A DNA stretch of 64,000 nucleotides from Candidatus Aenigmatarchaeota archaeon (GCA_016932615.1 JAFGCN010000007.1:83189-147188), one strand, 5' to 3'; counted from the first letter of the stretch, positions 30,630-55,290 are shown. Numbers and translations are program-made. Notes: a model not told the origin generated them from the letters alone.

Positions 30630-30743
30630 AACTTAAAAACCAAATATATATACCACACACAACCAATTAAAACAGCTAAAAAGATTATTTTCCAATCTAC
30701 TTATGGGCTCGTAGTCCAGCTCGGTTAAGACGTCTCCTTGACA

Positions 30744-30831
30744 TGAAGCTTTTCTTTTCAAAGAAAAGCCCCAGGCGCAAAAGAAACCGAATTCCTGCTT
30801 CGCAGGGATAATTTCCGCGCATGGCTCAAAA
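30744..30831 (+). repeat. tRNA-Val intron 1, cassette copy 1
   Basis: An 88-base intron holding the shared cassette: hairpin GCTTTTCTTT with AAGAAAAGC, linker CGCAAAAGAAAC, and second hairpin CCTGCTTCGCAGG (30794-30806). Confidence 0.75.
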
Positions 30832-30854
30832 TGGAGAAGATCCCCAGTTCAAAT

Positions 30855-30930
30855 GAAGCTTTTTCTTGCAAGAAAAAGCTCCATGACCAAAAAGAAGCAG
30901 ATTCGTGCTTCACACAATAAAAATGAAAAT
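30855..30930 (+). repeat. tRNA-Val intron 2 (T loop), cassette copy 2
   Basis: A 76-base intron with the cassette: perfect palindromic hairpin 30857-30880, linker GACCAAAAAGAAGC, and second hairpin GTGCTTCAC (30905-30913). It is the only copy in which the apex GCTTCGC is changed (GCTTCAC). Confidence 0.75.
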
Positions 30931-31030
30931 CTGGGCGGGCCCATATATTCAAAATATTTTGGAACTGTTTTCTTGAGGGGGCCTGACGGCGGCCCATTTT
31001 TCTTAAATTTTTGATAAATTCAACTGAGTT

Positions 31031-31672
31031 ATGGACCAAAAAGAGCTTGACAAAAAAATCTCACAAATTGCCGAAGAATCGGAAAAGATTATGGTTTCCT
31101 GCCCGAGAGCGGCCCACCATTTCGAGCACATAAAACGGGTGCTGAAGCTTGGCCTGGAGATTGGAAAAGAGGAAGGCGCAGACATGGCAATACTCAAGCC
31201 GGCGATATTGATGCATGACCTTGGCAGAACATGCGAAGACGGAAAGACCCACCACTCAAAATTCTCAGTAGACGTCGCAAAAAAAGTACTTGAAAAGGTG
31301 GACTACCCCAAAGAATACTGGGGGCCAATACTGTACGCAATCGAAAACCATTCCTGGAGAAGCACTGCCGAGAGAAAGGAGGCGCAAATACTGCAGGACG
31401 CTGACAAGCTGGATGCAATCGGAGCGATTGGCCTGGCACGCGGCTTTGCCTTCGGCGGCTCGAACAACTGGCCTGAGTATAACCCAGAGGACCCATTTCT
31501 CAAACAGGACCGGCCGATGGAAAACTATACGGTAGACCATATATACTGGAAGATACTGAGGCTGAAGCGAAAAATGCACACCAAAAAAGGAAAGGAACTC
31601 GCAGAAGAAAGGGAAAAATTCGTCAGGGAATTTCTCGACAGGATGGAAAAAGAACTCAATGGAGAACTATAA
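31031..31672 (+). CDS. HD-domain phosphohydrolase
   Basis: A 213-residue HD-superfamily protein. Metal-binding positions are visible as HFEHIKRV (about 30-37), MHDLGR with H62-D63, HH at 74-75, and DADKLDAIGAIG later. The order resembles the YedJ/YpgQ group of small HD phosphohydrolases, several of which act on nucleotides; the substrate here is unknown. It begins about 90 bases after tRNA-Val and has a TATA-like TTAAATTTTTGATAAATT upstream. Confidence 0.85.
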   Translation: MDQKELDKKISQIAEESEKIMVSCPRAAHHFEHIKRVLKLGLEIGKEEGADMAILKPAILMHDLGRTCEDGKTHHSKFSVDVAKKVLEKVDYPKEYWGPILYAIENHSWRSTAERKEAQILQDADKLDAIGAIGLARGFAFGGSNNWPEYNPEDPFLKQDRPMENYTVDHIYWKILRLKRKMHTKKGKELAEEREKFVREFLDRMEKELNGEL

Positions 31673-31698
31673 AACCCACCAAAATGCTTGCCGGAGAC

Positions 31699-31944
31699 CT
31701 AAATCTGCTTCAAAAGCTTGTCACAGTCCTTTATTATCGAGTCGCAGGCATCCTCTATCGCCTTTTTATTGTTTTTGCCTTCAACCAACATCTCCGCTTT
31801 TCCCAAAAAAGGGTGCTTTGTGCCGTAAGCGGCCCTTTCTACGCCTTTCTGCTCCCAAATCCTCTCGACGAGAAGGTTCAGAATGGTTGCAGATTCGTCG
31901 GTCTCGAGGACTACCTTTCCCTCCTTACTCTCAACAATTCTCAT
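31699..31944 (-). CDS. rpoL: RNA polymerase subunit Rpo11 (L)
   Basis: The 81-residue alpha-like subunit that dimerises with RpoD. It shows ATILNLLVERIWEQKGV, AAYGTKHPFLGKAEMLVEG and a C-terminal helix, all standard for archaeal RpoL (eukaryotic RPB11). The start is ATG 31944; the upstream open frame overlaps the divergent L11-like gene. Divergent from the L11 C-terminal-domain gene with 29 bases between starts. Confidence 0.92.
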   Translation of the reverse strand: MRIVESKEGKVVLETDESATILNLLVERIWEQKGVERAAYGTKHPFLGKAEMLVEGKNNKKAIEDACDSIIKDCDKLLKQI

Positions 31945-31973
31945 AAAGTATTTTAAAAAATTAAAGCTATATA

Positions 31974-32222
31974 ATGGCAACGGTTTCAGAATTGGTGAAA
32001 AAGGAAGCAAAGCTTCAAAAACTTGCAAGTAAAGAGACTCCACAGAACATAATGGGAAATATCCCTTTCGAGAAGATAAAGGAGATTGCAAAGAACAGGG
32101 AAATGCCAGGAAATACGCTTGAAGCCAAAATCCGGCAGATTGTCGGAACGTGCATGTCTTACAGGATAACCATCGACGGAAAAGACCCGAGGGAATTCAA
32201 GCATTACGGGCTTAAGGAGTAA
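31974..32222 (+). CDS. Stand-alone ribosomal protein uL11 C-terminal domain
   Basis: All 82 residues match the C-terminal, rRNA-binding half of uL11: the linker ELVKKEAKLQK, the GNIPFEKIKEIAK helix, LEAKIRQIVGTCMSYRITIDGKDPREF. The N-terminal domain (PGPPLGPALG region) is absent; the start codon falls where the two domains normally join, and the DNA upstream belongs to the divergent rpoL. An AT-rich promoter (TATTTTAAAA at about 31948-31957) precedes it. It is either a split or shortened uL11, or an extra paralogue. Confidence 0.8.
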   Translation: MATVSELVKKEAKLQKLASKETPQNIMGNIPFEKIKEIAKNREMPGNTLEAKIRQIVGTCMSYRITIDGKDPREFKHYGLKE

Positions 32223-32325
32223 TTTTAAGGTTTTGGCAGGTTTAAAGCGCCAGGGGTTGCCCTAGGGCTCTTAGAGGATCAGCCAAATACAGAAAAAAAG
32301 ATATAGGATTCTTACAAGTAACATA

Positions 32326-33477
32326 ATGCGCACTTCAGCAATAAGCGGATTCAGCCGGATGCCGCTTGAGGAAAAGATAAGGGTAGTTGAGAAGTTTTCG
32401 GGGCTTGACAGCGAAGACCTCAAAATCCTGGAAACTTACAGAAAGCTCCCCGACTACTCGGAGCTTGAAAACAATATCGGGCCATTCAAGATTGCGACAA
32501 ACTTCCTTGTAAACGGAAGGGACATTCTTGTCCCCATGGAAACTGAAGAGCCCTCAGTTGTCGCTGCTGCTTCGAGAGGGGCAAAGCTTGCGCGGCAGGG
32601 GGGCGGGTTTACCGGCGGCTACCTGGAATCAAAAACCGTCGGTATTGTGCAGCTGATTGATATCCCGGAGCTGGAAGAAGCAATAAGGAACATTTCCCGG
32701 AAAAAGCAGGAAATCCTGAGAGATGCTAACCGGACAAATGCTTTCATTTTTGAAAGGGGCGGAGGGGCAAAAGACCTGGAGGTAAAAACAGTTGAGACCG
32801 AAAAAGGAAAGCACCTTGTTGCATACCTAACCGTCGACACGCTTGACGCGATGGGGGCAAACATCATAAACACTATGCTTGAGGAAATCGCGCCTTATCT
32901 GTCGGAGCTTTCGGGAGGAAGGCCCAACCTGAAAATTGTGTCAAACTTTGCGCCAAGGCGCGTTGTGAAAATGTGCTGCAAAATCCCAATCGAAAAGCTC
33001 GCAATAGAGGATTTTCCGGGCGAAGAGGTTGCAAAAAGAATTGTCCAGGCAACGGCCCTTGCAAAGGTGGACGTTTACCGGGGCTCAACACATAACAAGG
33101 GGGCAATGAATGGAATAGATGCCGTAGTTCTTGCAACCGGAAATGACTTTAGGGCCGTTGAGGCGGGAGTTCATAGCTACGCCGCAAGAAACGGAAAATA
33201 TACCGCCATAACCGACTGGTGGCTTGACGGAAATTACATTAACGGAAAAATAGAAGTGCCCCTTGTCATTGGAACCGTGGGCGGCGCGACAGGGACAAAG
33301 AAGGGGCGGCTTGCTCTAAAGATACTTGGAATTAAAAAGGCAGAAGAGCTTGGCGCAATATGCGCGTCAGTCGGCCTTTCCAATAACTTTGCGGCAACTT
33401 CCGCCATAGTTTCTGTTGGAATACAGAAGGGGCACATGAAGATTCACCGTAAGTTTCTTGAAGGGAAGCCAAAATAA
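32326..33477 (+). CDS. mvaA: HMG-CoA reductase, class II type
   Basis: Reduces HMG-CoA to mevalonate. ENNIGPFKIATNFLVNG, VPMETEEPSVVAAAS, GYLESKTVG and DAMGANIINTM are hallmarks of the class II (bacterial-type, Pseudomonas mevalonii-like) enzyme; most archaea use class I, but class II occurs in some lineages. The 383-residue length is slightly short for class II. A TATA-like AAGATATAG lies about 25 bases before ATG 32326. Its TAA overlaps the ATG of the phosphatase gene. Confidence 0.93.
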   Translation: MRTSAISGFSRMPLEEKIRVVEKFSGLDSEDLKILETYRKLPDYSELENNIGPFKIATNFLVNGRDILVPMETEEPSVVAAASRGAKLARQGGGFTGGYLESKTVGIVQLIDIPELEEAIRNISRKKQEILRDANRTNAFIFERGGGAKDLEVKTVETEKGKHLVAYLTVDTLDAMGANIINTMLEEIAPYLSELSGGRPNLKIVSNFAPRRVVKMCCKIPIEKLAIEDFPGEEVAKRIVQATALAKVDVYRGSTHNKGAMNGIDAVVLATGNDFRAVEAGVHSYAARNGKYTAITDWWLDGNYINGKIEVPLVIGTVGGATGTKKGRLALKILGIKKAEELGAICASVGLSNNFAATSAIVSVGIQKGHMKIHRKFLEGKPK

Positions 33478-34019
33478 TGACTGAACTGACCTTCTTTGCC
33501 CACGGAACAACAACCGACAATGAAGCGGGGCTTGCTACGGGCTGGAACGGTGGGGAATTGTCTGAACTCGGCAAAAGGCAGTCCGAAGACCTGGAAAAAG
33601 CAATAGCTGAAAAGTTTGATTTAGTTTTCTGCTCGGACCTCAAAAGGGCCATTGATTCTGCCGAAATTGCTTTTGGAAAAAAATACCAAGTAATCCCTGA
33701 CAGGCGGCTGAGAGAGGTTAATTATGGCAATCTTACCGGAACAGAGTTTTCTGCTTTCAGCGAAAAGCTTGCTGACTTTATAGATGCCAAATTTCCCGGG
33801 GGTGAAAGCTACAAGGACGTTGAAAAAAGGGTTTCAGAGTTTTTGGGAGTTCTGAAAACAAATTATCCTGGAAAGAAAATCGCGATTGTTTCCCACCAGG
33901 GGCCGCAGCTTGCCCTTGAAGTCCTGATAAACAAAAAGAGCTGGAAAGAGGCACTCAGTGAAGATTGGAGAAGGAAAAAAGACTGGAAGCCCGGATGGAA
34001 ATATGTCCTTTCAGACTGA
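33477..34019 (+). CDS. Histidine phosphatase family protein with altered RHG motif
   Basis: A 180-residue phosphoglycerate-mutase-like protein. The catalytic RHG motif is AHG (A8-H9-G10), so the phosphohistidine His is kept but the flanking Arg is lost. Other site residues appear: CSDLKRAIDSAEIA with Arg, LREVNYG with Glu, and VSHQG with the second His. Activity may be reduced or altered. It overlaps the HMG-CoA reductase stop (TAATG) and is translationally coupled to it; a role in isoprenoid phosphate metabolism would be inference only. Confidence 0.82.
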   Translation: MTELTFFAHGTTTDNEAGLATGWNGGELSELGKRQSEDLEKAIAEKFDLVFCSDLKRAIDSAEIAFGKKYQVIPDRRLREVNYGNLTGTEFSAFSEKLADFIDAKFPGGESYKDVEKRVSEFLGVLKTNYPGKKIAIVSHQGPQLALEVLINKKSWKEALSEDWRRKKDWKPGWKYVLSD

Positions 34020-34033
34020 TTAAAGCAAAACGG

Positions 34034-34423
34034 TCATTTAAACCTTTTGACAATGTTTACATGCCCGTCCTCATCCCAGGAGCCAAGGCCAACAGTATTC
34101 AGTGCGGGGATAATCTTTATATCAGGATATAGTTTCCTAAGCGCATGAATGCTTGCGTCGCAGCCAAGAACAACCGCGACATCTCCGCCAAGCATCACTT
34201 CTCCAAGGTGCTTTATTCCACAGGGCATTCCTACGAGCGCCTGGCATACAATATTGTAGCCCTCCTGCTGAAGCTTGAAGGAAATTGCTTCCATCCCTTC
34301 TTTTCCCCCAGTTTCGCATTTTCTGGCGCATGTGTTGCAGGACACCACACAAATCCTATCATCTTTTCCAAGCTCATCTGTGATTGTGTCAAAGGGTTTT
34401 AATTCTGTAACAATCATAAACAT
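34034..34423 (-). CDS. MTHFR C-terminal-like Cys-rich protein
   Basis: A 129-residue protein matching the C-terminal zinc/Fe-S-binding domain that accompanies methylenetetrahydrofolate reductase: VVSCNTCARKCETGG (C29, C32, C36), CQALVGMPCGIKH and VVLGCDASI. It stands alone here, with no metF gene next to it. In acetogens and methanogens this domain is linked to folate one-carbon metabolism; its role as a solo protein is unknown. Convergent with the phosphatase gene. Confidence 0.75.
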   Translation of the reverse strand: MFMIVTELKPFDTITDELGKDDRICVVSCNTCARKCETGGKEGMEAISFKLQQEGYNIVCQALVGMPCGIKHLGEVMLGGDVAVVLGCDASIHALRKLYPDIKIIPALNTVGLGSWDEDGHVNIVKRFK

Positions 34424-34507
34424 TAACGATTTATATTAGCTTTAAGTACTCTGCTATAAGTCAATTGTCTAAGTCTGCCAAAATAGGTTATTTTGTTCTC
34501 TAAACTT

Positions 34508-35227
34508 ATGCTGATAAGAAAGGAAGAGTCAGTTCCAAAAAAGGCCGGAGAAAGACATACTGTGTGGGAATATGAATTTCCGTATAAAGACCTGGGATTC
34601 GCAACCGCCTATATGGACGGCAGGTACCCCGAGCAGAATCAAATAGTAAATTCTAAGTGCGACGAAGTCTATTTTGTGTTGGATGGAAATGCCCATGTAA
34701 GTTATGGGGGTAAAGAATCCGGATTAGAGCAGGGAGACTTGTTTTTCTTTGAAAAAGGCAACCCCTGCTCAGTGGATGCCCGAAACATGACGCTGATACT
34801 GGTCACTGCCCCCGCATGGTTTCCTGAGCAGTCTAAGTTGGAATCCTCACCAGGAAACTTCCTGCCTGGAAAATCCCAAAATCTGGTCAAAAAATCCAAC
34901 GCAGTTGAAATAAAAAATGGGCCAAACTGCACAGTCCATGAGCACTACTTTCCATCAAAAGACCTGGGATTTGCAACTGCCGATATGGAGGGAAGGTACC
35001 CCGACAAGGGCTTCGCTACAAACACCGCCTGCAGCCAGATTTATTACGTGCTTGAAGGGCAGGCAAAAGTTCACTACGAAGGAAAGGAATACCCGATGAA
35101 AGCAGGTGACGCATTCTTCTTTGAAAAAGGAAAGCCCTACTCCCTAGAATGCAGGGGTCTAAAAGTCGCAGTTGCAAATGCGCCTGCCTGGTACGCAGAC
35201 CAATACAAAATTGTGCCTGAAGAGTAA
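34508..35227 (+). CDS. Double-cupin protein
   Basis: Two tandem cupin domains of about 110 residues each, plainly duplicated: each has an ...LGFATA-M-GRYP segment, a VYFVLDG/IYYVLEG strand, VSYGGKE/VHYEGKE, GDLFFFEKG/GDAFFFEKG and an APAW segment. The first copy lacks obvious His ligands; the second has one or two. It may bind a small molecule rather than catalyse. The start is ATG 34508; a TTG 15 bases upstream is less likely. Confidence 0.8.
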   Translation: MLIRKEESVPKKAGERHTVWEYEFPYKDLGFATAYMDGRYPEQNQIVNSKCDEVYFVLDGNAHVSYGGKESGLEQGDLFFFEKGNPCSVDARNMTLILVTAPAWFPEQSKLESSPGNFLPGKSQNLVKKSNAVEIKNGPNCTVHEHYFPSKDLGFATADMEGRYPDKGFATNTACSQIYYVLEGQAKVHYEGKEYPMKAGDAFFFEKGKPYSLECRGLKVAVANAPAWYADQYKIVPEE

Positions 35228-35247
35228 ACGGCACTACAGTTATGCCG

Positions 35248-35877
35248 CTAGTCAAACATGCTAGCTGAAAACATAGGCATGCCTCGCCTTGGCGGGCCGT
35301 GCCCTGGAAGCAATGCATCCACATCAAGCTGCGCAAGCTTTTTCAGGGATGCCTTAAGCTCGTCTATGTTTCCGCTTGGAAGGTCTGTTCTTCCAAATCC
35401 GTCAGAAAAAAGCGTGTCTCCGGAAATTAAAATTCTCTTGTTTTTTTCGTAAAGGCAGATGCTCCCTCTTGTGTGGCCTGGAGTATGCAAAACCCTAAAC
35501 CGGTAGGAAGGAGTTTTTATCTCTATTCCTTCTTCCAGCAGCATGTCCGGCTCTAGCTTTATGGGGGGGCTTCCAAATAAATCTGCGCATGAGCCGATTC
35601 CAGACTTTAGCTTCTCTGCATCAAACTCATGGACACATATTAGGGCCTTTGTGTTTTGGCTGAACCATTCAGTTCCTCCAATGTGGTCAAAGTGGCCGTG
35701 AGTGCAGACAACTCGCTTCACCTTGCCAGGGCTTATTCCCTGCATTTTCATCTGCTCGAGTATTGCCGGAAAGTCGCTTTTAGTTCCGGTATCCACCAAA
35801 AGCTCTCCCTCAATCAAGTAGACATTGCTTGAAGAGCCAAATCCCCCAAACTGGAATATGCCACCCGGAATGTTCAT
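35248..35877 (-). CDS. Metallo-beta-lactamase fold hydrolase (glyoxalase II-like)
   Basis: A 209-residue metal hydrolase with H60-x-H62-x-D64-H65 (THGHFDHIGG), HTPGHTRGS, SGDTLFSDGFGRTDLP and LLPGHGP, a full dinuclear metal site. This is the small archaeal glyoxalase II-like group, which splits thioesters or other small substrates. Convergent with the double-cupin gene and divergent from the C39-like protein gene. Confidence 0.88.
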   Translation of the reverse strand: MNIPGGIFQFGGFGSSSNVYLIEGELLVDTGTKSDFPAILEQMKMQGISPGKVKRVVCTHGHFDHIGGTEWFSQNTKALICVHEFDAEKLKSGIGSCADLFGSPPIKLEPDMLLEEGIEIKTPSYRFRVLHTPGHTRGSICLYEKNKRILISGDTLFSDGFGRTDLPSGNIDELKASLKKLAQLDVDALLPGHGPPRRGMPMFSASMFD

Positions 35878-35911
35878 TAAATTACTTGCCTAAAATCTAG
35901 GTAAGTTTATC

Positions 35912-36493
35912 ATGGAAAACAGGAAATACATCCCCCTTATCCAAAAGCCGGACTGCTGCTCTGCTGCATGCCTTCAGATGATTCTTTTCAAAAGAGGATT
36001 CACTCGATTCACTCAGGAGAAAATTGCTAAAGAGCTGGGGCTGTATATAGGCCCTAAAAACAAAGATGCTTTTTCTGAAAAGCTGAAAGTCCGGTCAAAG
36101 AAGTCAGACATAAACGAGACCGTCAAAAGCGCCAGGAAGATAAATGAATTCTTCAGGAAGAATAGAATTCCACTTTCTGCCAGGGGATTCAAAATATCGC
36201 AGATTGAAAACCCTGAAGAGTTCATAAGGCAAGCCCTCGACAAAGATTATGACTTGTGGGCAGAGTTTTCAAATATGCCTATTTACGGAACTAGTGGAGG
36301 GCATGACTGCCTTATATCCGGGCTGAAAAAGAAAGGGCGCCAATGCTTTGCTGAATTGGTTGACCCATATTGGGGGCATAAGCAGGTATACCTTGTGCCG
36401 CTTGACAGATTAATCAAAGCGATGCAAAAAGAAAACTCTCCGCCTCCTGCCAGGGAAAGAGGCATAGTAGTTATCACAGGAAGGCCGTCCTAA
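35912..36493 (+). CDS. C39-like (papain-fold) cysteine peptidase family protein
   Basis: A 193-residue protein with Gln11 and Cys15/Cys16/Cys20 in LIQKPDCCSAACLQMIL, then GGHDCLISGL and LVDPYWGH, the Q-C...H...D order of the peptidase C39 fold. No signal peptide or transporter domain is visible, so it is cytoplasmic. C39 proteases cleave double-glycine leaders, but many C39-like proteins have other roles. The stop overlaps the convergent MFS gene by four bases. Confidence 0.7.
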   Translation: MENRKYIPLIQKPDCCSAACLQMILFKRGFTRFTQEKIAKELGLYIGPKNKDAFSEKLKVRSKKSDINETVKSARKINEFFRKNRIPLSARGFKISQIENPEEFIRQALDKDYDLWAEFSNMPIYGTSGGHDCLISGLKKKGRQCFAELVDPYWGHKQVYLVPLDRLIKAMQKENSPPPARERGIVVITGRPS

Positions 36494-37659
36494 GCAGACT
36501 TTTGAAACTTCCTGGCAAAGCATATCATCAGGAGGGCGCATATGATAAACAGCACCACCCTGACAGCAAATATCCAGGAAAATCCCAGATGCTCCATGAT
36601 AAGCCCTCCTGAAAACGAGCCTATTACACTGGCGATAAATGCATTATTGGTGACGAAGGCAATGTCACGGCCATTATTCTTTCCAGCAGAATCGAAAATC
36701 ATCTTCGTGACGGCAGTGGAGCCAAGCCCAAATGCTGCTGCCTGAAGAAAGAGAACACCTGCCGCAGCGAATGGGCTTTGATTAAATACCAAAAATACAT
36801 TGACCGGAATTATCAAAGCAAACGTGGAAGCGTATAAAAGCCCGGGGTGGAATCGGTCAGCAAATTTTCCAAAAAAGAGCTGGGATAGGTAATAGCCGCA
36901 CCACATAAAGCCAATCAAAAATCCGATAAGCCCTGCATCAGCTCCAAGATGCTTGAAATAAAGCGGAAAGCCAAAAGCAGTAATGGTCTGCCCTGCAATG
37001 TTCGAGATAAGAAGCACCAGGAAGAGGAACTTTATTTTCCAGGGAATACTTCCAAAGTCAAAGGCCTTCGAGATGCCTGAAGGCCTGCCACCGGATTTCG
37101 GTTTGGGCTTCTTAACCGTTTCCCTAAAGCCCATCGCCAAGAGAACAGAAAACATGCCAAAAAGGGCGCAGACAAGAAAAAGGTTTCGGTAGCCAAGCCA
37201 TAGCAGAAGAACACCCCCCAAAGCCATAGCAGCGACTACGGCCATGCCAGCAATCCCATTGTAACGGCCAGCAAGCTGCCCACGCTTGTTTTTCGGCATG
37301 ATGTCCGACAGGTATGCCCCAGAAGACGCACTTGATATCGCAAGGTATGACGACCAGAGGAGAGACGCAATTGTAAACTCCCAGGATTTAGTGAAAAAGG
37401 CAATTGCAATAAAATATGCCGAAAAGAGCACCGAGGAAAGTACGAGGTACGCCTTCCGCCCAACCGCATCCGAATGGGTGCCCACAAAATAATTGAGAAC
37501 AAGCCCCAGAACCGGACCGATTGCAAAGATGGCGCCAATCTCCGCGTAGCTTATCCCAAGCCCCTGAAGATAAAGCGGAAAAGTTACCGAAGCGATTCCC
37601 GCTGGAATAGAAAGCACAATCCCCCAGACAAGAAACTTTTGGAAATCGCCATTTGCCAT
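36490..37659 (-). CDS. MFS transporter
   Basis: A 389-residue transporter with about 12 transmembrane spans. The family loop between TM2 and TM3 is seen as GTHSDAVGRKAY, and a charged cytoplasmic loop (RETVKKPKPKSGGR) divides the two halves. Similar to drug/sugar efflux MFS proteins; the substrate is unknown. It is a close paralogue of the gene directly upstream (37683-38823), with the same N-terminal pattern GDF-KFL-W--V-SIPAG and the same NNGRD motif in the second half, so the pair arose by tandem duplication. Confidence 0.88.
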   Translation of the reverse strand: MANGDFQKFLVWGIVLSIPAGIASVTFPLYLQGLGISYAEIGAIFAIGPVLGLVLNYFVGTHSDAVGRKAYLVLSSVLFSAYFIAIAFFTKSWEFTIASLLWSSYLAISSASSGAYLSDIMPKNKRGQLAGRYNGIAGMAVVAAMALGGVLLLWLGYRNLFLVCALFGMFSVLLAMGFRETVKKPKPKSGGRPSGISKAFDFGSIPWKIKFLFLVLLISNIAGQTITAFGFPLYFKHLGADAGLIGFLIGFMWCGYYLSQLFFGKFADRFHPGLLYASTFALIIPVNVFLVFNQSPFAAAGVLFLQAAAFGLGSTAVTKMIFDSAGKNNGRDIAFVTNNAFIASVIGSFSGGLIMEHLGFSWIFAVRVVLFIICALLMICFARKFQKSA

Positions 37660-44496: not shown

Positions 44497-44694
44497 CGCC
44501 GGGGGTGAGACTCGAACTCACGACCCTCACGGGACTGGTTTACTCATTTAATAATCGACTTCCCAAAAGGAAGGTAGAAAGCGTCAATAATATTTCGCGA
44601 AGCGCGAAACTGCTTTCTTTTGCTCCTGAAGCTTTTCTTTTGCAAAGAAAAGCTTCATTCGAGACCAGCGCATTAACCGCTCTGCCACCCCGGC
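44497..44694 (-). tRNA. tRNA-Ser(CGA) with one intron
   Basis: Spliced, it forms a class II tRNA: GCCGGGG with CCCCGGC, D arm GCAGAGCGGTTAATGC, anticodon stem CTGGT with ACCAG and loop CTCGAAA (anticodon CGA), long variable arm TCCCGTGAGGGTC, T arm GTGAG-TTCGAGT-CTCAC, discriminator G. One 117-base intron (44541-44657) follows position 37. CCA is not encoded. Confidence 0.9.
44541..44657 (-). repeat. tRNA-Ser(CGA) intron, cassette copy 3
   Basis: Contains the cassette: long palindromic hairpin (44627-44657), linker GAGCAAAAGAAAGC, second hairpin TTTCGCGCTTCGCGAAA (44593-44609). About 50 further bases of unrelated sequence precede the 3' exon. Confidence 0.75.
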
Positions 44695-48246: not shown

Positions 48247-48902
48247 ACTGCGCCCTTGCTTACCACTGCGGGGGATGCTGCATAAAGTTGCTCCCTCATT
48301 TCTGGACTCACTTCAAGACCGCTCAATGCTGTTGCAAAAGAATCACCTGCGTCAAGTGCTTCTCCATAAGTCATAGCAGAGGGCACAGCATTCATTGCGC
48401 CTTTGAATCCAACCGGAACTACTTCACCAGCATGGGTATCTATTCCAGTACCAGCTATGCTGCCATAGGTTTCCCTAAAGCCCTGAGAAAGCTGCTCTTT
48501 TGCGCTGCCTATCGCCCCATCTGCAATACGCTTGGTCTCCTCGAATCCTTCAGCTGAAGCTATACCTTCTTCAATCGTTGTTTGGGCATATTGTCCTGAC
48601 TGGTCAAGGCGAGCCAATAAGGCATTGCCAAGCGCTTCCTTTGTTTCTCCAGGTGGCTCCATCATGTAAGCTCCTTCTAATTCCTGGACAGTTTCATAAC
48701 TCGACTCAAGGTTGCCGTATGCTTCTGCAGCCACTTTGCCATGACCGATAGCGCCGTCAACCACTGGCCTTGCCTGATCGTATCCCTGAACCAATGTGTC
48801 TTTAGCTCCTGCTGCTGCGTCCTTCAAAGGTTCTACATTTAAGTTCTCAAAGGCGCAATTAACCACTTTATATGCTTCTCCTAAGTCTTCTAGATTTATC
48901 AT
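48243..48902 (-). CDS. Hypothetical protein, 219 aa
   Basis: A soluble, Ala/Gly/Glu-rich protein with amphipathic helices and a low-complexity central part (DGAIGHGKVAAEAYG and DGAIGSAKEQLSQG are related internal repeats about 85 residues apart). No signal peptide or membrane span. I chose ATG 48902, which has a clear TATA box; the extra 18 codons upstream encode promoter sequence. It is the first gene of an operon with the 128-residue protein. Confidence 0.65.
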   Translation of the reverse strand: MINLEDLGEAYKVVNCAFENLNVEPLKDAAAGAKDTLVQGYDQARPVVDGAIGHGKVAAEAYGNLESSYETVQELEGAYMMEPPGETKEALGNALLARLDQSGQYAQTTIEEGIASAEGFEETKRIADGAIGSAKEQLSQGFRETYGSIAGTGIDTHAGEVVPVGFKGAMNAVPSAMTYGEALDAGDSFATALSGLEVSPEMREQLYAASPAVVSKGAV

Positions 48903-48918
48903 AAATATACCTTTCCTG

Positions 48919-48931
48919 ATATATATATAGC
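48919..48931 (-). promoter_or_regulatory. TATA box for the 219-aa/128-aa operon
   Basis: Reads GCTATATATATAT on the minus strand, 17-29 bases upstream of ATG 48902. Confidence 0.55.
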
Positions 48932-48997
48932 GTCCTTTCGAAATCGGAAAAATCATACTTCAAAACTTTCAGAATCCAAAAATAAAATCCCTTACAG

Positions 48998-49360
48998 CTA
49001 TTTCTTGGCTTTCTTTTTGGCGCCTTTCTTAGCAATCTCCTTTTTAAGCTCCTTTGATTTCAGTGTAAAAAGCTTGACCTGGCTTTCTATGTAGGCATTT
49101 GCAACTGCAACGCCCGCCTTATCGCCTTTTGAGTTTTTCTCGACCAAGGTCCTGAGCGCCTTAAAATAATCCACCCAGGTATCGGATATTTCCTTGGCGA
49201 TTTTCAAATTTTCAACGCCGCCTTCCCTTTCAACCTTGTCTATTGCCTCTATGCTCGCGGAGTAGCTGCTCGAAAAAACGCTATTGCTTGTGGATGCCGG
49301 AGGTACACTTACAGAAGGCTTGGGCGCTTTAGCAACCTTTGATACTTTTGGCTTTGCCAT
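48998..49360 (-). CDS. Lineage-specific helical protein B (120 aa)
   Basis: Paralogue of the 128-residue protein at 47860: both have a basic/Pro-rich N-terminus and the core AKEISDTWVDYFKALRTLVEKN...YIESQVKLFTLKSKEL. The C-terminus is very basic (KKGAKKKAKK), which suggests nucleic acid or membrane-surface binding. The start is ATG 49360 after GTTATAATT. Divergent from the two-TM gene, with 26 bases between starts. Confidence 0.65.
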   Translation of the reverse strand: MAKPKVSKVAKAPKPSVSVPPASTSNSVFSSSYSASIEAIDKVEREGGVENLKIAKEISDTWVDYFKALRTLVEKNSKGDKAGVAVANAYIESQVKLFTLKSKELKKEIAKKGAKKKAKK

Positions 49361-49386
49361 AATTATAACAAATACAATCCTAATAT

Positions 49387-50043
49387 ATGGACAAAAAGCC
49401 ACTCTATTCTAACAGCACAATTGTCCAGAATGCTTACGAATCGTCTGGAAAGAGTAGCGCAAAAGAAAGTTCTTCGTATTCAAGCGGCATGTACTCAAAG
49501 CTTTCCCCAAAAAAATCCGGAAGCAAAAAATGGGTTCTTCCTCTTGCAGTCGGGGCTGCCGGCATTGCTTACTCGATAAGCCAGATCCAGGGAATGGACG
49601 AAACAATGATTGAAACGCTTAAGCACACCGGAGGGATTGACCGTGTGACCTCTGCAGAATACCGGCAGATAATGGAAGCGGCCTCCGACAATATGCAAAC
49701 AGACGGATCTGACCCCGGGCTTTTGGATAAAGTCCAGAATGAGCTTGCGGGCACAAAAGTGTCTGTTGCCGAAAAATCTGTCCTTGCCAAGGTAGGAGAA
49801 GCCGCAAGCATCATGAATTCCGACCCCGAGGAAGCGCACAGGATTATTGAAGCGGAAAGGCAGGCGCATCCATACATCTTCCAGGCCAACCCGGAATATA
49901 ATCTGGTTGACCCAATTTTTACCCAGGAAATGGTTGAAAAGGTAAGGGCCGCAGGTGCAGGCGGGCTGGTAGGCCTTGCCGGAGCAAGCGCAGCGGCAGG
50001 CGCCTATGCTGAATCAAGAACCAAACACAAAAACCCCCTATAA
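49387..50043 (+). CDS. Two-TM hypothetical protein, 218 aa
   Basis: Layout: a Ser/Lys-rich disordered N-terminus (residues 1-45), a transmembrane span (about 47-63), an acidic loop domain of about 120 residues and a Gly/Ala-rich C-terminal span (about 190-208), then a short tail. The facing gene at 50088 has the same architecture. No family is recognised. Divergent from the 120-residue helical gene and convergent with the 50088 gene. Confidence 0.65.
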   Translation: MDKKPLYSNSTIVQNAYESSGKSSAKESSSYSSGMYSKLSPKKSGSKKWVLPLAVGAAGIAYSISQIQGMDETMIETLKHTGGIDRVTSAEYRQIMEAASDNMQTDGSDPGLLDKVQNELAGTKVSVAEKSVLAKVGEAASIMNSDPEEAHRIIEAERQAHPYIFQANPEYNLVDPIFTQEMVEKVRAAGAGGLVGLAGASAAAGAYAESRTKHKNPL

Positions 50044-50087
50044 ACCCACGTCCGGCAAACTACCAAAAATAACACCAATGAAAACAC

Positions 50088-50696
50088 TCAGTAAACTTTT
50101 GCCTTTGCCCCTACAGAAAACAGTTTTGCATTACTTTCAATTTTGGAATTCTGGGAAGCATCCGAACGCTCAAGGCACCTTTTGGCCATGCTTCCTCCAT
50201 ACACCAGCCCCAGAAGAGCTCCAATTTTATCAAGATTCCCAGTAATCCTCTGCCGAACTATTTCATCCATACCCATTCCCTGTGTGGTTATCACAGTACT
50301 GGTACTAATACCTGTACCTTCTGCAGCCCCCGTTGCAGTTACTGCCTTCTCAGGATCAATGCCCCCCAGATAAGAAGCCAAAGTATCCTGCAAACCTCCC
50401 GACTGGTTAGACTCAACGGAAGTTGCAAATGCCCCAATAGGATTAATGTATTGAGTTATCATAACAAGAGCATCGGGTATCGCTGTACTCAAATAAGGCA
50501 GATTATCGACTACCTCCCCGCCAGCCGCCCCCAAAAGAGCGCCGGTTATTGCAAGAGCGGGAAGCGCGGTCTGCTTGACAAGGGTCTTATAACCGCACTT
50601 CAGGGCGCTGGATACAGAACCGCTAGGGGGTTTTGAGCCATAAGCCCCTTCATCCGCTGCAGGGGGAGGAGCATAAGAACTGCCGGAATCAGACAT
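50088..50696 (-). CDS. Two-TM hypothetical protein, 202 aa
   Basis: Ser/Pro/Gly-rich N-terminal 35 residues (PPPAADEGAYG), a membrane span near 42-60, a loop domain with GAAEGTGISTSTVIT, then a second span near 163-178 and a basic/Ser tail. It resembles the convergent gene at 49387 in layout, and both have a short MDE motif (QGMDE, GMGMDE) although at different ends of the loop. No known function. Only 34 bases separate its start from tRNA-Met. Confidence 0.65.
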   Translation of the reverse strand: MSDSGSSYAPPPAADEGAYGSKPPSGSVSSALKCGYKTLVKQTALPALAITGALLGAAGGEVVDNLPYLSTAIPDALVMITQYINPIGAFATSVESNQSGGLQDTLASYLGGIDPEKAVTATGAAEGTGISTSTVITTQGMGMDEIVRQRITGNLDKIGALLGLVYGGSMAKRCLERSDASQNSKIESNAKLFSVGAKAKVY

Positions 50697-50750
50697 AATA
50701 TCATATCTTAAGGAAAGTATATAGAAATAGTGCCGGGGAAGGGATTTGAA

Positions 50751-50855
50751 TTCGAGGAAGCCTTATTCTTACCCAATTTCCCAGTAATATGCCTGCGAAG
50801 CAGGAATTACTTTCTTTGGAATTGAACACTTTCTTTCCCTGAAAGAAAGGGCTCA
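50751..50855 (-). repeat. tRNA-Met intron 2 (T arm), cassette copy 5
   Basis: A 105-base intron between T stem and T loop. Hairpin 50829-50849, linker TTCCAAAGAAAG, second hairpin CCTGCTTCGCAGG (50792-50804), which is identical to the second hairpin of tRNA-Val intron 1. Confidence 0.75.
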
Positions 50856-50870
50856 CCCTCGATCTCTGCG

Positions 50871-51011
50871 TTTCTCAAGACAAGTTTAGCGCGAAACTTT
50901 CATCGATTTCTCTCAAAGCTCACTAGCTAGCCAACTTAACGGTAGAATTACCGCGAAGCGGGAAACCGCTTCTTTTGACGTAAAGGACTTTTCTTCGCAA
51001 GAAAAGTCTTT
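50871..51011 (-). repeat. tRNA-Met intron 1, cassette copy 4
   Basis: A 141-base intron. The cassette occupies its 5' part: hairpin 50986-51008, linker CGTCAAAAGAAGC, second hairpin CCGCTTCGCGG (50951-50961). The last 60 bases contain a different stem, AAGTTT with AAACTT. Confidence 0.75.
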
Positions 51012-51071
51012 TTATGAGCGCAGCGCCTTAACCGCTTGGCCACCCCGGCATAATTTGCTATACGAAAAAGA

Positions 51072-51638
51072 TTAACATATATTTGCCTTCTCAAGGTCCC
51101 TTATAAACCCGCATTTTGTCTCGTCAAAGCCGCTTCGAAGCATTGCTATTGTGTCCTCAGAGAACTCCTTATGGTAGAGAGGGTCAAAAAACAGGGACAG
51201 GTTCGTAAAAAACGAGTGGTAGACCGAGAAAAGCTGGTTGAATTGGTAGCCCATGCGCGGGCTTTTGAGGCAGAGGTAAAAGGCAAGATTGTCCCAGATG
51301 TAAGCGCAGTCAAAGACAAACCTCTGGCATACTTTTGAGCTGTCATAGCCGCCATCAGTGTTTGAAAGCTCTGAAAGTATCTTGGACATAACGTCAAAGA
51401 GAAGGTAAAACCTATCATAAACCTGGGGGTCTTTTGCCTTAGGTATCTCGCTTGAAATAGCCCGGGAGATTGAATTGAGATAGTTTACCCTCTGCTCGAT
51501 ATCCCCAAAAGGATATATCCTACAGTGCCACTTGTCTCCTACCCGCTCACACCTTACGCTTCGGGACATCGAGCTTAACGCCTCGAAATAGTTCTCAAGA
51601 AACTCATCGATAAGCCCCAAAGCATCGGTCTTCATCAT
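51072..51638 (-). CDS. Hypothetical protein, 188 aa
   Basis: A soluble helical protein with many aromatic and Cys residues (FYLLFDVMSKIL, CQRFVFDCAYIWDNLAFYLCLK, YHSFFTNLSLFFDPLY). No family is recognised; the fold could be a four-helix bundle. It starts three bases after the stop of the double-HIT gene and is probably the last protein gene of the sepF-rpoP-HIT-HIT run, ending 22 bases before tRNA-Met. Confidence 0.65.
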   Translation of the reverse strand: MMKTDALGLIDEFLENYFEALSSMSRSVRCERVGDKWHCRIYPFGDIEQRVNYLNSISRAISSEIPKAKDPQVYDRFYLLFDVMSKILSELSNTDGGYDSSKVCQRFVFDCAYIWDNLAFYLCLKSPRMGYQFNQLFSVYHSFFTNLSLFFDPLYHKEFSEDTIAMLRSGFDETKCGFIRDLEKANIC

Positions 51639-51641
51639 AAT

Positions 51642-52679
51642 CTACACATTCTTTACTTCGCTTATATTAAAAACGTCATCCTGATGCGCAAGATTAAACT
51701 CCTGCCATTCCCTCTCGGGGCTTTTCCGGCTCTTCGGCTTTGGCGAGGATCTTTCGGGCGGTTTTTCTTCCCCCCGTCCATCCTTTTTCTCCCCACTTCC
51801 CTTACCAGAGCCCATCTCGAAACGCACCTTTTCGGCAATCTTGTCTAGCTCACTAGGGTCTGCAGGGGCAGGGTTCCACATAAAATTGAGTCCATCTCCC
51901 TCAACTCTTGGAAAAACGTCAATACAGAAGCTCTTCTCAGTATTGCCGGCAATTATGTTCGTGCCTTGCGCTTTGAGTGCTTCAAAAGCGGCAGTTGCGG
52001 CAAAGCTTGCAACATAAAACAGGTGGACTGCTTCAGAGTCGGACAGTTCCCCGACTTTGGCAACCTCTCCCTTCGCATAAACTTTCACGTGGCCAAGCGC
52101 ACCCTTGCACATAATCGCCAAGGCCGCAGTATCGTCATAGATAACTTTAGTGTCTGCATACCGCGGTATGGGGTCGCTTTTTGCTTCCAAACCTGGCTTT
52201 AGGCCTGGATTTCGCTTGAAGTGGTTCTGGATCATTATCGGCAGGTTATGGGAGAATATTTCAAATATTTCCTGAAGCTTTGCCGGGTCCGGAACGATTT
52301 CGGGAACTCTAAAGCCGCCTCCCTCCGGGCTTGGAATCAGGTGAACCATAAAATGCTGCGACTGCTGGCCCGCCACTGCGCCGTTTGCAATGAAAATATC
52401 CAGATTCGGAGCGCCGGTTGCCCTTGCAGAAGCACCGCCCAGATTTTTTGCTACAGTAAACAGCCGGGCAAATGTTTCGACAGGAACCATTGGCAGAATC
52501 GGATAATGCTCCTTTGGCATAAGGAGAGTATGCCCCGGTGCCTTGGGGTTTATGTCAAGGACACCTACAAAGAGGTCGTCTTCATAAACCTTCCTGGAAG
52601 GGATCTCTCCAGACACTATTTTGCAAAAAGGGCAGGCCCCCCGGGCATCTTCGGCGCTTCTTGGCTGTTCTTCAGGCAT
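51642..52679 (-). CDS. Double HIT-domain protein with degenerate active sites
   Basis: The first 140 residues are a HIT domain (CPFCKIVSGEIPSRKVYEDD, LDINPKAPGHTLLMPKEHY), but the H-x-H-x-H triad reads H-F-M-V-H, so the catalytic His is Met. A second HIT-like domain follows (VYAKGEVAKVGELSD..., SFCIDVFPRVEGDG) with the His residues lost. A charged, Pro-rich tail of 60 residues ends the protein. Probably a nucleotide-binding rather than catalytic protein. It follows the canonical HIT gene by 26 bases on the same strand. Confidence 0.8.
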   Translation of the reverse strand: MPEEQPRSAEDARGACPFCKIVSGEIPSRKVYEDDLFVGVLDINPKAPGHTLLMPKEHYPILPMVPVETFARLFTVAKNLGGASARATGAPNLDIFIANGAVAGQQSQHFMVHLIPSPEGGGFRVPEIVPDPAKLQEIFEIFSHNLPIMIQNHFKRNPGLKPGLEAKSDPIPRYADTKVIYDDTAALAIMCKGALGHVKVYAKGEVAKVGELSDSEAVHLFYVASFAATAAFEALKAQGTNIIAGNTEKSFCIDVFPRVEGDGLNFMWNPAPADPSELDKIAEKVRFEMGSGKGSGEKKDGRGEEKPPERSSPKPKSRKSPEREWQEFNLAHQDDVFNISEVKNV

Positions 52680-52705
52680 AATTAAAATGGATTAAGAGTA
52701 ACTAT

Positions 52706-53134
52706 TCAGGGCGGGCTTTTTTGCGAAAATGCGCGGATTTTTTCGGCAATTTGGGGCAGGTCTTCCTTACGAAAGGGCATTTTAACGATTGCCTGAACCG
52801 ACTCTCCGCCATCACCAGCATAACGGGGAATTATATGGAAATGGACGTGCTGGACCTCCTGGCCGGCAATCTTTCCAACATTTGCCCCGATATTGCAAGC
52901 ATCAGTCCCCATAGCAGACATCACCTGGCTTGAAAGAGAATAGATAAATCCAAAGTATCCTTCCGCTTCGGAAAGGGGCATATCCAGCAGGGAAGCATAA
53001 TGCTTTTTCGGAATTATCACAGTGTGCCCCCTGGAAGAAGGGCTGATGTCAAGAAACGCAAGAAACCTCCCATCCTCGGCCACCTTCAGGGCAGGGATTT
53101 TTCCCGAAATAATGCTGCAAAACAGGCAGTCCAT
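52706..53134 (-). CDS. HIT family nucleotide hydrolase/transferase
   Basis: A canonical 142-residue HIT protein (Hint/GalT superfamily): N-terminal CLFCSIISGKIP, DISPSSRGHTVIIPKKHY and the intact triad QHVHFHIIPR. It likely cleaves a phosphoramidate or dinucleoside polyphosphate. It lies 25 bases after rpoP and precedes the degenerate double-HIT gene, so an active and an inactive HIT protein are side by side. Confidence 0.92.
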   Translation of the reverse strand: MDCLFCSIISGKIPALKVAEDGRFLAFLDISPSSRGHTVIIPKKHYASLLDMPLSEAEGYFGFIYSLSSQVMSAMGTDACNIGANVGKIAGQEVQHVHFHIIPRYAGDGGESVQAIVKMPFRKEDLPQIAEKIRAFSQKSPP

Positions 53135-53159
53135 AATAAATCACAAGCCAAATAAAACA

Positions 53160-53291
53160 TCACCTTGCTAGAATTGTCTTGGTTTCGCCGATTCGGTCTT
53201 TCATTAGTATCCTGAAACCGCAGGTCGGGCAGATTACGCTCTCTTCAATTTTTTCTACTTTGCCCTTACATTTTACGCATGTATATCCCAT
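53160..53291 (-). CDS. rpoP: RNA polymerase subunit Rpo12 (P)
   Basis: A 43-residue zinc-ribbon protein reading MGYTCVKCKGKVE at the start, then CPTCGFRILMKDR and KTILAR at the end. The four Cys (5, 8, 21, 24) and the GFRIL segment are those of archaeal RpoP/eukaryotic RPB12. Its ATG overlaps the sepF stop by one base (TAATG), so it is coupled to sepF. In many archaea rpoP follows the rpl37Ae gene; here it follows a division gene. Confidence 0.9.
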   Translation of the reverse strand: MGYTCVKCKGKVEKIEESVICPTCGFRILMKDRIGETKTILAR

Positions 53292-53647
53292 TATTCTTTA
53301 ATCCTTGAAACCATTACGTTGGGAGGACAAACGATGAGGATTGACTGAGGCCCCATTACTATATCCCCGTTTATCGCCGTAACCGTCTTCTTTATCCTTT
53401 CGATTGACCTTTTAAGCTCGCCTACATCCTTGTTTTTCATTTCGAGTGTCTCCGCCAAAACTATGCTTCCTTCCCGGATGTACTTCAGAATCTTTTCACA
53501 ATCCCGAAATTCGGTCAATTTTTCTATCCTAATCCGGATTTTTCCAGACTGCTGCCTTGGCTCCTCGATAATGCTGTCCAAATCAATATATTCATCGCTG
53601 TCTGACTCCTGGCGTGATGGCCTACCAAAGATTCGATCAAATACCAT
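53291..53647 (-). CDS. sepF: SepF, FtsZ membrane anchor
   Basis: A 118-residue protein with an N-terminal amphipathic membrane-binding helix (MVFDRIFGR), a short acidic linker (DEYIDLDSI) and the SepF core beta/alpha domain with IREGSIVLAETLEMKN, LKRSIERIKKTV, INGDIVMGPQSILIVCPPNV. Archaeal SepF tethers FtsZ to the membrane. The partner ftsZ is at 26.2 kb. A TATA box is at 53657-53668. Its stop overlaps the rpoP start. Confidence 0.93.
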   Translation of the reverse strand: MVFDRIFGRPSRQESDSDEYIDLDSIIEEPRQQSGKIRIRIEKLTEFRDCEKILKYIREGSIVLAETLEMKNKDVGELKRSIERIKKTVTAINGDIVMGPQSILIVCPPNVMVSRIKE

Positions 53648-53656
53648 AACTATACT

Positions 53657-53668
53657 TAAATATATAAA
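53657..53668 (-). promoter_or_regulatory. TATA box for sepF operon
   Basis: TTATATATTTAA on the minus strand, about 10-21 bases before ATG 53647; the AT-rich run extends to about 53672, and the box likely lies in its distal part. Confidence 0.4.
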
Positions 53669-53710
53669 TATCCCCTTCTGGTGGGCTTATTCAGAGTGGG
53701 CCAGTGGCTT

Positions 53711-53723
53711 GAAAATATATACT
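53711..53723 (+). promoter_or_regulatory. TATA box for the Yip1-like gene
   Basis: GAAAATATATACT lies 19-31 bases before the ATG at 53742. Confidence 0.45.
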
Positions 53724-53741
53724 ATATTGGCTATACTAATT

Positions 53742-54344
53742 ATGGAGATTTTCAGGCGGAGTTGGGGTGTCATCTCAGACCCCAGCCGGTTCTTCAGCAA
53801 AATAAAGAAGGAAAAGGGGCTCAAGAAGGCGTTTACTTACTTTTTTGTATTGTCCCTGTTTGGAACCGTCATGTCTTTTGCCGCAAATGAAATGCTTCTT
53901 GACTATGTTTACGGGCCGCTAATGAATGCTTATGGATTCTCAGCCCCCCAGCAGGAAGTTTCACAGCAGATTGTGGGCACCTGGTACGCAATAATGTTTT
54001 TCTCAGGCCTGCTCATAAGCTTTCTAATGGCAGGGCTAATCCACCTCTGGATTATGCTTTTTGGAGGCAAAGAGGAATATGAAAAGACCTATCAGATATA
54101 TGCTTACTCTAAGACTCCCAGCTTTCTTTTCGGCTGGATTCCATTTTTTTCAGTACTTGCTGAGGCGTACCACGTCGTTCTTTTAATTGCCGGGACGCAT
54201 AAAATTCAAGGAATCGAAAGGAACCGGGCAATCTGGATGTTTGCTGTGCCTTACCTCATATACATTGCAGTTTCGATAATCTTTCTCATGCAGTTCATGA
54301 ACTCTGACGCTATGAGCGTATTTTTGACCAATTCGACAATTTAA
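53742..54344 (+). CDS. Yip1-domain membrane protein
   Basis: A 200-residue membrane protein. The N-terminal ISDPSRFFSKIKKEKGLKKAF is the typical cytoplasmic start of archaeal Yip1/DUF1282 proteins, followed by four or five spans, with the conserved GLIHLWIMLFGG and YSKTPSFLFGWIPFF in the middle. Function in archaea is unknown. ATG 53742 follows CTAATT and has a TATA box; the long frame upstream overlaps sepF and is not coding. Confidence 0.8.
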   Translation: MEIFRRSWGVISDPSRFFSKIKKEKGLKKAFTYFFVLSLFGTVMSFAANEMLLDYVYGPLMNAYGFSAPQQEVSQQIVGTWYAIMFFSGLLISFLMAGLIHLWIMLFGGKEEYEKTYQIYAYSKTPSFLFGWIPFFSVLAEAYHVVLLIAGTHKIQGIERNRAIWMFAVPYLIYIAVSIIFLMQFMNSDAMSVFLTNSTI

Positions 54345-54944
54345 CTAAATGTTCTCTCCCTCCAGCAACTCACGCCTTAAATAGGCCTCTAGGGTACGAT
54401 AAAGCACATCTGCAGAAGCTCCCATCCCATGAAAATGACACCTTCTTTGGCTTCCATTTGCCTCAACTGAAGCGATGGCCTCCCCTCTAAAATTTCCGCC
54501 ATCGTGGTAATTGCCTAGCCAAATGAGACCCCTGGAAATAAAACTATCCCCCTCAGGCATGAGAAATGGCCTGCCCGAATAAATGAAAGAATAAACGCCT
54601 GGATCAGAGAAGCCCTGATTTCCAAGTTGGATTGATGACTCCGAACTCTTCTCTCCAGGAAAAATATGGAGACCCTCTACAGGAAATATCCCCAGATATA
54701 AGCTTCCCATTACAACAGGTTTAATCCTGTCTGAATTGTAATAAACTCCAAAGTTTGATTCATGTCTTTTGCCATCAGCCAGAAGCGGCACAGCTATTTG
54801 CTCAAAAAAATTTTGGGTGGAAAAATCTACATAATCTCCATTTCTTATCCTTACCCAAGAACCGCTATAACTTGCGCCATAGTCCATCAGATCCAATAGA
54901 CTTTGGAGCAAATCCTTTGGTCTGATTACTTTTTCAAATGCCAT
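54345..54944 (-). CDS. Hypothetical protein, 199 aa
   Basis: A soluble protein of mixed alpha/beta character with no recognised motif; YSGSWVRIRNGDYVDFS, MGSLYLGIFPVEG and LIWLGNYHDGGNFRGE look like strand-loop regions, and RCHFHGMGA holds two His. Starts just after a TATATTTT-like box. It is convergent with the Yip1-like gene and lies between that and tRNA-Ser(GCT). Confidence 0.65.
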   Translation of the reverse strand: MAFEKVIRPKDLLQSLLDLMDYGASYSGSWVRIRNGDYVDFSTQNFFEQIAVPLLADGKRHESNFGVYYNSDRIKPVVMGSLYLGIFPVEGLHIFPGEKSSESSIQLGNQGFSDPGVYSFIYSGRPFLMPEGDSFISRGLIWLGNYHDGGNFRGEAIASVEANGSQRRCHFHGMGASADVLYRTLEAYLRRELLEGENI

Positions 54945-55000
54945 AAGAATACCCCAAAATATACGTTTAGGTAGTTATTTCCTAATGCCCAAATTTTTAA

Positions 55001-55022
55001 TACGCTGGGGCCGGGATTCGAT
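55001..55022. repeat. 22-bp direct repeat, copy 1 (extra 3' exon of tRNA-Ser)
   Basis: Identical over 22 bases to 55112-55133, which is the 3' exon of tRNA-Ser(GCT) from T loop to discriminator plus two flanking bases. It lies 90 bases beyond the real 3' end and has no other tRNA parts near it. Confidence 0.85.
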
Positions 55023-55111
55023 GAAACCCTTTAAGGGCTAATTTGGTCAAAAGGTCTTCACCCCAAAGCAGGCAAAACATAAGCTTTCCGCAAAAATAAC
55101 CCTTTTTGAGC

Positions 55112-55133
55112 TACGCTGGGGCCGGGATTCGAT
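55112..55133. repeat. 22-bp direct repeat, copy 2 (within tRNA-Ser 3' end)
   Basis: The copy used by tRNA-Ser(GCT): T-loop end, 3' T stem, 3' acceptor strand and discriminator. The repeat start-to-start distance is 111 bases. Confidence 0.85.
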
Positions 55134-55290
55134 ACCGGAAATTACAGCCAAATTGCAGACCATTTCGCGAAGCGGAATAGTTTTTCTTTTGACGTTAAGG
55201 ACTTTTCTTTCATAAAGAAAGGTCTTTACCCGGGCTCCCAAAGGGAACATGCTTAGCAGGCATGCGCCTTAACCGCTCGGCCACCCCAGC
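55114..55290 (-). tRNA. tRNA-Ser(GCT) with one T-loop intron
   Basis: Exons give GCTGGGG with CCCCAGC, D arm GCCGAGCGGTTAAGGC, anticodon stem CATGC with GCATG and uninterrupted loop CTGCTAA (anticodon GCT), variable arm TTCCCTTTGGGAGC, T stem CCGGG with CCCGG, loop TTCGAAT, discriminator G. The only intron (55133-55227) lies inside the T loop after the first T (54/55). CCA is not encoded. A second copy of the 3' exon lies downstream. Confidence 0.88.
55133..55227 (-). repeat. tRNA-Ser(GCT) intron, cassette copy 6
   Basis: A 95-base T-loop intron. Hairpin 55200-55224, linker CGTCAAAAGAAAAAC (same first ten bases as tRNA-Met intron 1), second hairpin CGCTTCGCG near 55167-55175. Confidence 0.75.

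Follow-up and report, generated by a model that had tools for sequence, protein, structure and literature searches.

Related introns in four tRNA genes of an aenigmatarchaeal genome are probably copies of a miniature mobile element with a predicted triple-stranded core

A 64,000-nt stretch of DNA from a Candidatus Aenigmatarchaeota archaeon (GCA_016932615.1 JAFGCN010000007.1:83189-147188; hereafter the window, with positions counted from its first letter) contains four tRNA genes interrupted by six related introns of 76-141 nt, and our analysis indicates that these introns are probably copies of a miniature, non-autonomous mobile element. They belong to a dispersed family in which three strands of a conserved core covary, copies are flanked by direct repeats and lie in both orientations, and insertion positions have turned over at one syntenic tRNA gene. 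The element looks like a unit of ~50-290 bp, lacking terminal inverted repeats, that duplicates its target site on insertion, and for the tRNA introns the best reading is insertion tolerated by the archaeal splicing endonuclease.

A sequence-only reading of the window had proposed six related introns in genes for tRNA-Val, tRNA-Met and two tRNA-Ser, and these proved to be real and to lie where that reading had placed them. When intron-free sequences were submitted to ARAGORN, Val-GAC, Ser-CGA, Met-CAT and Ser-GCT were all recognized, and neither plain ARAGORN nor an Rfam scan found a single tRNA in the unspliced window; indeed, it is because of these elements that plain tRNA finders fail on such genomes. 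Relaxed ARAGORN settings, which returned 357 spurious genes, were abandoned. The likeness of the introns was far above that of a dinucleotide-shuffled null, with a summed pairwise alignment score of 608 versus 247 ± 11.5 (maximum 284) in 200 shuffles, and 12 of the 15 intron pairs exceeded the 99th percentile of that null. Each intron comprises a hairpin, a linker and a second hairpin whose apex is GCTTCGC (GCTTCAC in Val-2). By our numbering, insertions occur at three positions: 37/38 (Val-1, Ser-CGA and Met-1), 54/55 (Met-2 and Ser-GCT) and 59/60 (Val-2).

The tRNA-Val(GAC) gene (30705-30943, + strand; 75 nt when spliced) holds Val-1 at 30744-30831, with its hairpin at 30749-30768 and a mirror-image linker at 30778-30786, and Val-2 at 30854-30929, whose hairpin (30859-30878) and mirror linker (30888-30896) both carry runs of 5. 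On the - strand, the tRNA-Ser(CGA) gene (44497-44694) has one intron at 44541-44657 (hairpin 44632-44652, mirror linker 44614-44622), and the tRNA(CAU) gene, Met-CAT (50731-51049), has two, namely Met-1 at 50872-51012 (hairpin 50988-51006, mirror linker 50970-50977) and Met-2 at 50750-50854 (hairpin 50829-50849 and mirror linker 50811-50818, both with runs of 3). The tRNA-Ser(GCT) gene (55114-55290, - strand) contains an intron at 55133-55227, with its hairpin at 55202-55221 and a linker from 55191 downward; this is an imperfect mirror case, with three U in the 5' arm and four A in both the 3' arm and the linker. Judged by eye rather than by a program score, five of the six introns form bulge-helix-bulge junctions with 3-nt bulges and a mostly absent inner helix, the central helices being UUGA:UCAA in Val-1 (bulges CA^U and AA^U), UUCA:UGAA in Val-2 (bulges AA^U and AA^U), CUCG:UGAG in Ser-CGA, UCGAGG:CCUCGA in Met-2 and CCGG:CCGG in Ser-GCT. 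The genome also encodes a tRNA splicing endonuclease domain (PF01974, contig C18 of the home genome, G000; E = 2.9e-26), and the introns are presumably removed by splicing in the cell.

Read in mirror image, the 3' arm of the first hairpin gives the linker, CAAAAGAA: an arm of C-UUUU-C-UUU goes with a linker of C-AAAA-G-AAA, UUUUU with AAAAA, and UUU with AAA, with run lengths (2-6) varying jointly across all three strands. In run-length tests that set no condition on the linker, equal runs in the three strands were found in 26 of 29 home-genome copies (permuted mean 9.7, maximum 18) and in 65 of 90 unbaited copies from other genomes (permuted mean 26.6, maximum 41), counts that none of 10,000 permutations reached in either case. 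An independent partner-swap test, in which hairpins were picked regardless of the linker and each palindromic hairpin was counted on both strands, agreed with the mirror match, and where a copy has two C-G pairs, its linker has two G in mirrored positions (L006 and L013; L109 provides a 13-nt match). We considered whether the linker might pair antiparallel with the 5' arm and rejected this, as it fails for runs of 5, 3 and 2; an origin of the linker by templated duplication would not produce a mirror image. A triple helix is the parsimonious reading of this covariation, and the structure is a prediction from sequence. On the tRNA strand, the purine third strand would run antiparallel to the purine arm; alternatively, on the other strand, a classical pyrimidine third strand would form U-A-U and C-G-C triples. 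Triple helices of the telomerase-RNA and MALAT1 type place the loop of a pseudoknot alongside a U-A stem, and this topology would be matched here if the opposite strand were the active one, although sequence, context and organisms differ and the third strand here is predicted. The hairpin loop is complementary to the bases that follow the linker more often than with swapped partners (z = 7.5), and pairing with the flank in an outer helix is likewise supported (3.54 versus 2.83 swapped, standard deviation 0.05), the mismatches of this helix in the home genome being A.C, or G.U when the opposite strand is read.

Further copies were sought in the home genome and beyond. The hairpin CTTTTCTT..AAGAAAAG has 17 exact matches in the home genome and its reversed control has none, and the genome contains at least 33 mirror-bearing copies, with family introns in ~22 tRNA loci among those fetched at hairpin matches and other tRNA hits. 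Most of the tRNA genes found there are interrupted by family introns, and just a few reach the Rfam gathering score. The exact-pattern copies examined in this genome all lie in or beside tRNA genes, and those within tRNAs nearly all share one orientation. A MAFFT alignment intended for a covariance model misaligned copies of differing run length and was dropped in favor of pattern and descriptor searches. A strict pattern scanned over 84,980 species matched at least 115 places; among the 80 matches listed, 71 are archaeal (mostly DPANN, also Altiarchaeota and some Euryarchaeota) and 9 are bacterial (Saccharibacteria, Clostridia, an Oscillospiraceae bacterium and Mongoliibacter). Some of the bacterial matches are possibly due to chance, but at the Clostridia locus, L042, matched runs are seen in copies with a run length of 5 as well as of 4. 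Within the home phylum, taken as Aenigmatarchaeota from matches shared with named records, the pattern occurs in 32 of 156 genomes and reversed controls are all zero, with 16 copies in the home genome, 15 in a second genome (G120) and 1-4 in each remaining matching genome. Viral contigs gave three chance-like matches. The element itself has no match in Rfam at the gathering threshold in the sequences searched, where the surrounding hits were tRNA and rRNA alone. The GCTTCGC hairpin, which the sequence-only reading had included in the shared core, is characteristic of home-genome copies, and the core that recurs across genomes is the hairpin with its mirror-image third strand. The core is also present at four Saccharibacteria loci (L034, L041, L073 and L081), in the first three of which the copy lies between a tRNA and a terminator-like hairpin downstream. 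Other tRNAs carry divergent relatives of the element (L022 and L024, the linker of the latter no longer mirroring the larger hairpin), and at L019, L021 and L025 interrupted tRNAs have introns without the family core.

In related genomes, copies are found within and alongside tRNAs as well as between protein genes, in both orientations, and those next to open reading frames (ORFs) likewise lie in either orientation. Thus, the proposed cassette family stands as one family with many copies, but not as a family of introns only. Direct repeats of at least 15 bp flank 25 of 249 copies compared to 2 of 1097 random anchors (Fisher P = 4e-17), and repeats of at least 20 bp flank 11 copies and none of the anchors. 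In all, 28 distinct copies are repeat-flanked, with repeats of 14-72 bp (median 19) around inserts of 52-285 bp, and terminal inverted repeats were not found (own ends 11.50 versus 10.86 ± 0.51 when swapped). G120 has separate insertions with repeats of 42, 21, 16 and 18 bp. The smallest clean example is L169, where a 42-bp repeat at an ORF start surrounds a 53-bp insert; two successive insertions at a single site are seen both there and at L175, and at L177 one copy is nested within the hairpin arm of another. Near tRNAs the repeat often extends from the T loop as far as the 3' end of the tRNA, which therefore remains whole. We infer that these repeats are target-site duplications.

Similar arrangements are present in the home genome. 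A 16-bp repeat occurs at a tRNA-Val (L012), and in the window a 22-bp direct repeat (- strand) has its first copy within the tRNA-Ser(GCT) gene, from the T loop to the 3' end (55112-55133), and its second downstream of that gene (55001-55022). The 89-bp insert between them (55023-55111), which lies outside the six introns, was read by eye as what is probably a family copy, decayed and oppositely oriented, with ACCCUUU..AAAAGGU..CCCCAAAG on the + strand. At 30930-31000, the tRNA-Val gene is followed by another, incomplete tRNA-Val 3' end (GGCGGCCCATTTT), an arrangement that resembles the repeat-flanked insertions. At positions 222-401 of L012, a tRNA-Val 5' fragment with a family element of its own sits just ahead of an intact tRNA-Val bearing a T-loop family intron, and second tRNA 3' ends accompanied by opposite-orientation family elements were seen downstream of tRNAs at L026 (around 96, minus strand) and L013 (around 200). 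At L199 (contig C4 of G120, about 67900-68150), copies have extra hairpins inside the spacer and the loop of the right-hand hairpin, suggesting nested growth.

Turnover of introns was examined at the syntenic tRNA-Ser gene beside pgk, which was compared in nine related genomes. The gene has 0-2 introns, being intron-free in G148 and bearing one or two in the other eight genomes, at positions in the D loop, anticodon loop or T arm and with differing sequences; its anticodon is GCT in some relatives and CGA in others. Together with the direct repeats, this variation is a clear sign of movement. The proposal that the introns spread among tRNAs rather than descending with their hosts is likewise supported.

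Taken together, the mobile element that we favor would consist of a conserved core of ~45-50 nt, in which a hairpin, made up of a 5' arm of pyrimidines (C-Un-C-Um) and its complementary arm, would be followed by a spacer of ~9-13 nt and a purine strand (C-An-G-Am) folding back along the hairpin and matching it in successive base triples; the loop of the hairpin would, in some copies, pair as well with bases after the purine strand. Insertion would take place at the DNA level in either orientation, duplicating 14-72 bp of the target. In a compact genome, copies could survive where the duplicated target leaves both neighbors whole, or at a tRNA-loop site whose exon and intron ends pair into a bulge-helix-bulge, which the tRNA splicing endonuclease would cut. 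The triple strand would be kept by selection for mobility and may itself be the signal recognized for it.

Several observations weigh against this interpretation. Clear repeats remain at only ~10% of copies, and some of them (L066, 72 bp; L078; L115) may be tandem duplications. Run lengths are unmatched in 25 of the 90 unbaited copies, and support for the pseudoknot is limited to a subset (66 of 248 copies with at least 3 pairs versus 32.5 expected). Either strand may be the functional one: wobble types (G.U versus A.C) are balanced outside the home genome and folding energies conflict in sign. At the pgk-side tRNA-Ser, the differing anticodons make gene replacement possible in addition to intron movement. 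All genomes compared are unclosed assemblies, and no mobilizing protein was identified, nor any long element with the same ends in the fetched loci. A search between direct repeats for a long autonomous relative of up to several kb gave nothing convincing beyond ~290 bp, and no transduction was seen, the unique left extension of one G120 copy having no second site in that genome. The RVT_1 reverse transcriptase is present in 26 of the 156 home-phylum genomes and was not found in G000 or G120, the genomes richest in copies (97% and 95% complete, respectively). The mobilizing machinery might be of an already known type after all.

Spread by reverse splicing had been put forward in the sequence-only reading and has been proposed for archaeal tRNA introns: the splicing enzymes would insert an excised intron RNA into another tRNA loop, and the product would be copied to DNA and recombined into the genome. 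The confinement of examined home-genome copies to tRNAs and their surroundings, their nearly uniform orientation within tRNAs, and the complementarity of intron 3' ends to the exon (UGAA with UUCA of T loops) are consistent with such a route. However, it yields no duplication, and copies outside tRNAs, in both orientations and with long, variable direct repeats, are not expected from it; since RVT_1 was also lacking in the home-genome search, we regard reverse splicing as unlikely. A retroelement resembling short interspersed elements (SINEs) would instead act as RNA of the opposite strand, with a telomerase-like pseudoknot (U-A-U and C-G-C triples) near its 3' end, and both the variable duplications and the variable far end would then result from target-primed reverse transcription. 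Duplication length does vary and the hairpin side is the constant end, the opposite strand provides a pyrimidine third strand parallel to the purine arm (i.e., a classical RNA triplex), and the A.C mismatches of home-genome outer stems become G.U on it; yet the balance of wobble types in other genomes and the RVT_1 result for G000 and G120 make this explanation improbable as well.

A conserved, non-mobile functional RNA, such as a 3'-end stabilizer, terminator or small RNA, would owe its likeness to function. The AR5 copies (L054) lie closely after stop codons, the Saccharibacteria copies follow tRNAs ahead of terminator-like hairpins, and T-arm motifs number 93 on the same strand versus 23 on the opposite strand, but the direct repeats, nested copies, presence/absence turnover and both orientations beside ORFs argue that such an RNA is quite an unlikely explanation. 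It is very unlikely that the copies are remnants of integrase-driven elements that used tRNA 3' ends as attachment sites, with the repeats as attL and attR: although many repeats cover the stretch between T loop and tRNA 3' end (L107, L116, L140 and 55001-55133 of the window), equivalent repeats are also seen away from tRNAs, where an attachment sequence would not be expected (the ORF start of L169; L032, L064 and L079), and the inserts of ~50-290 bp share one core. Triplex-containing type III antitoxin RNAs were also rejected as a candidate identity, as the copies are dispersed and mostly single rather than arrayed beside a toxin (no toxin search was made).

The mobile element was also compared with known systems. 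According to PMC4090602, similar introns have been transposed among tRNAs in Thermoproteales by a mechanism called unknown (Fujishima et al., 2010). As far as that account goes, the two share similar introns at several positions of unrelated tRNAs, bulge-helix-bulge splicing and several introns per tRNA; by description, sequences not having been compared, the element here differs in occurring also outside tRNAs and in both orientations, with long direct repeats, a three-strand core and a mainly DPANN distribution. Disruption of a Caldiarchaeum tRNA-Thr by intron gain and scattered tRNA fragments was ascribed to a mobile element at the tRNA, but the candidate in that case measures 1.8 kb and encodes a recombinase (PMC3293823), whereas the inserts here are ~50-290 bp and non-coding. 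As outlined in PMC10969869, miniature inverted-repeat transposable elements (MITEs) and small interspersed palindromic repeats of prokaryotes are likewise short, non-coding, structured, dispersed and flanked by direct repeats; unlike MITEs so described, the element here lacks terminal inverted repeats, has duplications of variable length (14-72 bp) and carries a covarying third strand. SINE-like retroelements share the variable target duplications, but RVT_1 was not found in G000 or G120, which are incomplete genomes. Palindromes derived from IS200/IS605 insert without target duplication, whereas direct repeats are present here (Y1 transposase was not searched for), and casposon/Cas1 integration gives a duplication length that is constant per enzyme, whereas lengths vary within G120. 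Group I and II introns have a conserved catalytic core, and the introns here, of 76-141 nt, have no Rfam intron match. As in archaeal bulge-helix-bulge tRNA introns, removal restores a canonical tRNA and the genome has a splicing endonuclease. In tested defining features the element thus departs from MITEs, retroelements, IS200/IS605 derivatives and casposons; no description of such elements was found in the open-access literature (subscription papers not covered), and it is seemingly undescribed, spread through archaea and apparently a few bacteria.

A broader claim is possible but somewhat doubtful, and we advance it tentatively: that this is a previously undescribed class of mobile nucleic acid, down to ~50 nt in size, in which a self-formed triple strand would be the mobility signal, no resident reverse transcriptase would be needed and target duplications would be long and variable, and which would be a DNA-level source of DPANN tRNA introns and reach bacteria. 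Rarely can a triple helix be predicted from sequence alone as it is by this three-strand covariation, which is found in several archaeal phyla and, apparently, in some bacteria and can serve to find further copies. For the gain of tRNA introns in archaea, whose mechanism of transposition is called unknown in PMC4090602, these elements offer a direct and testable route, by insertion into DNA with target duplication followed by splicing.

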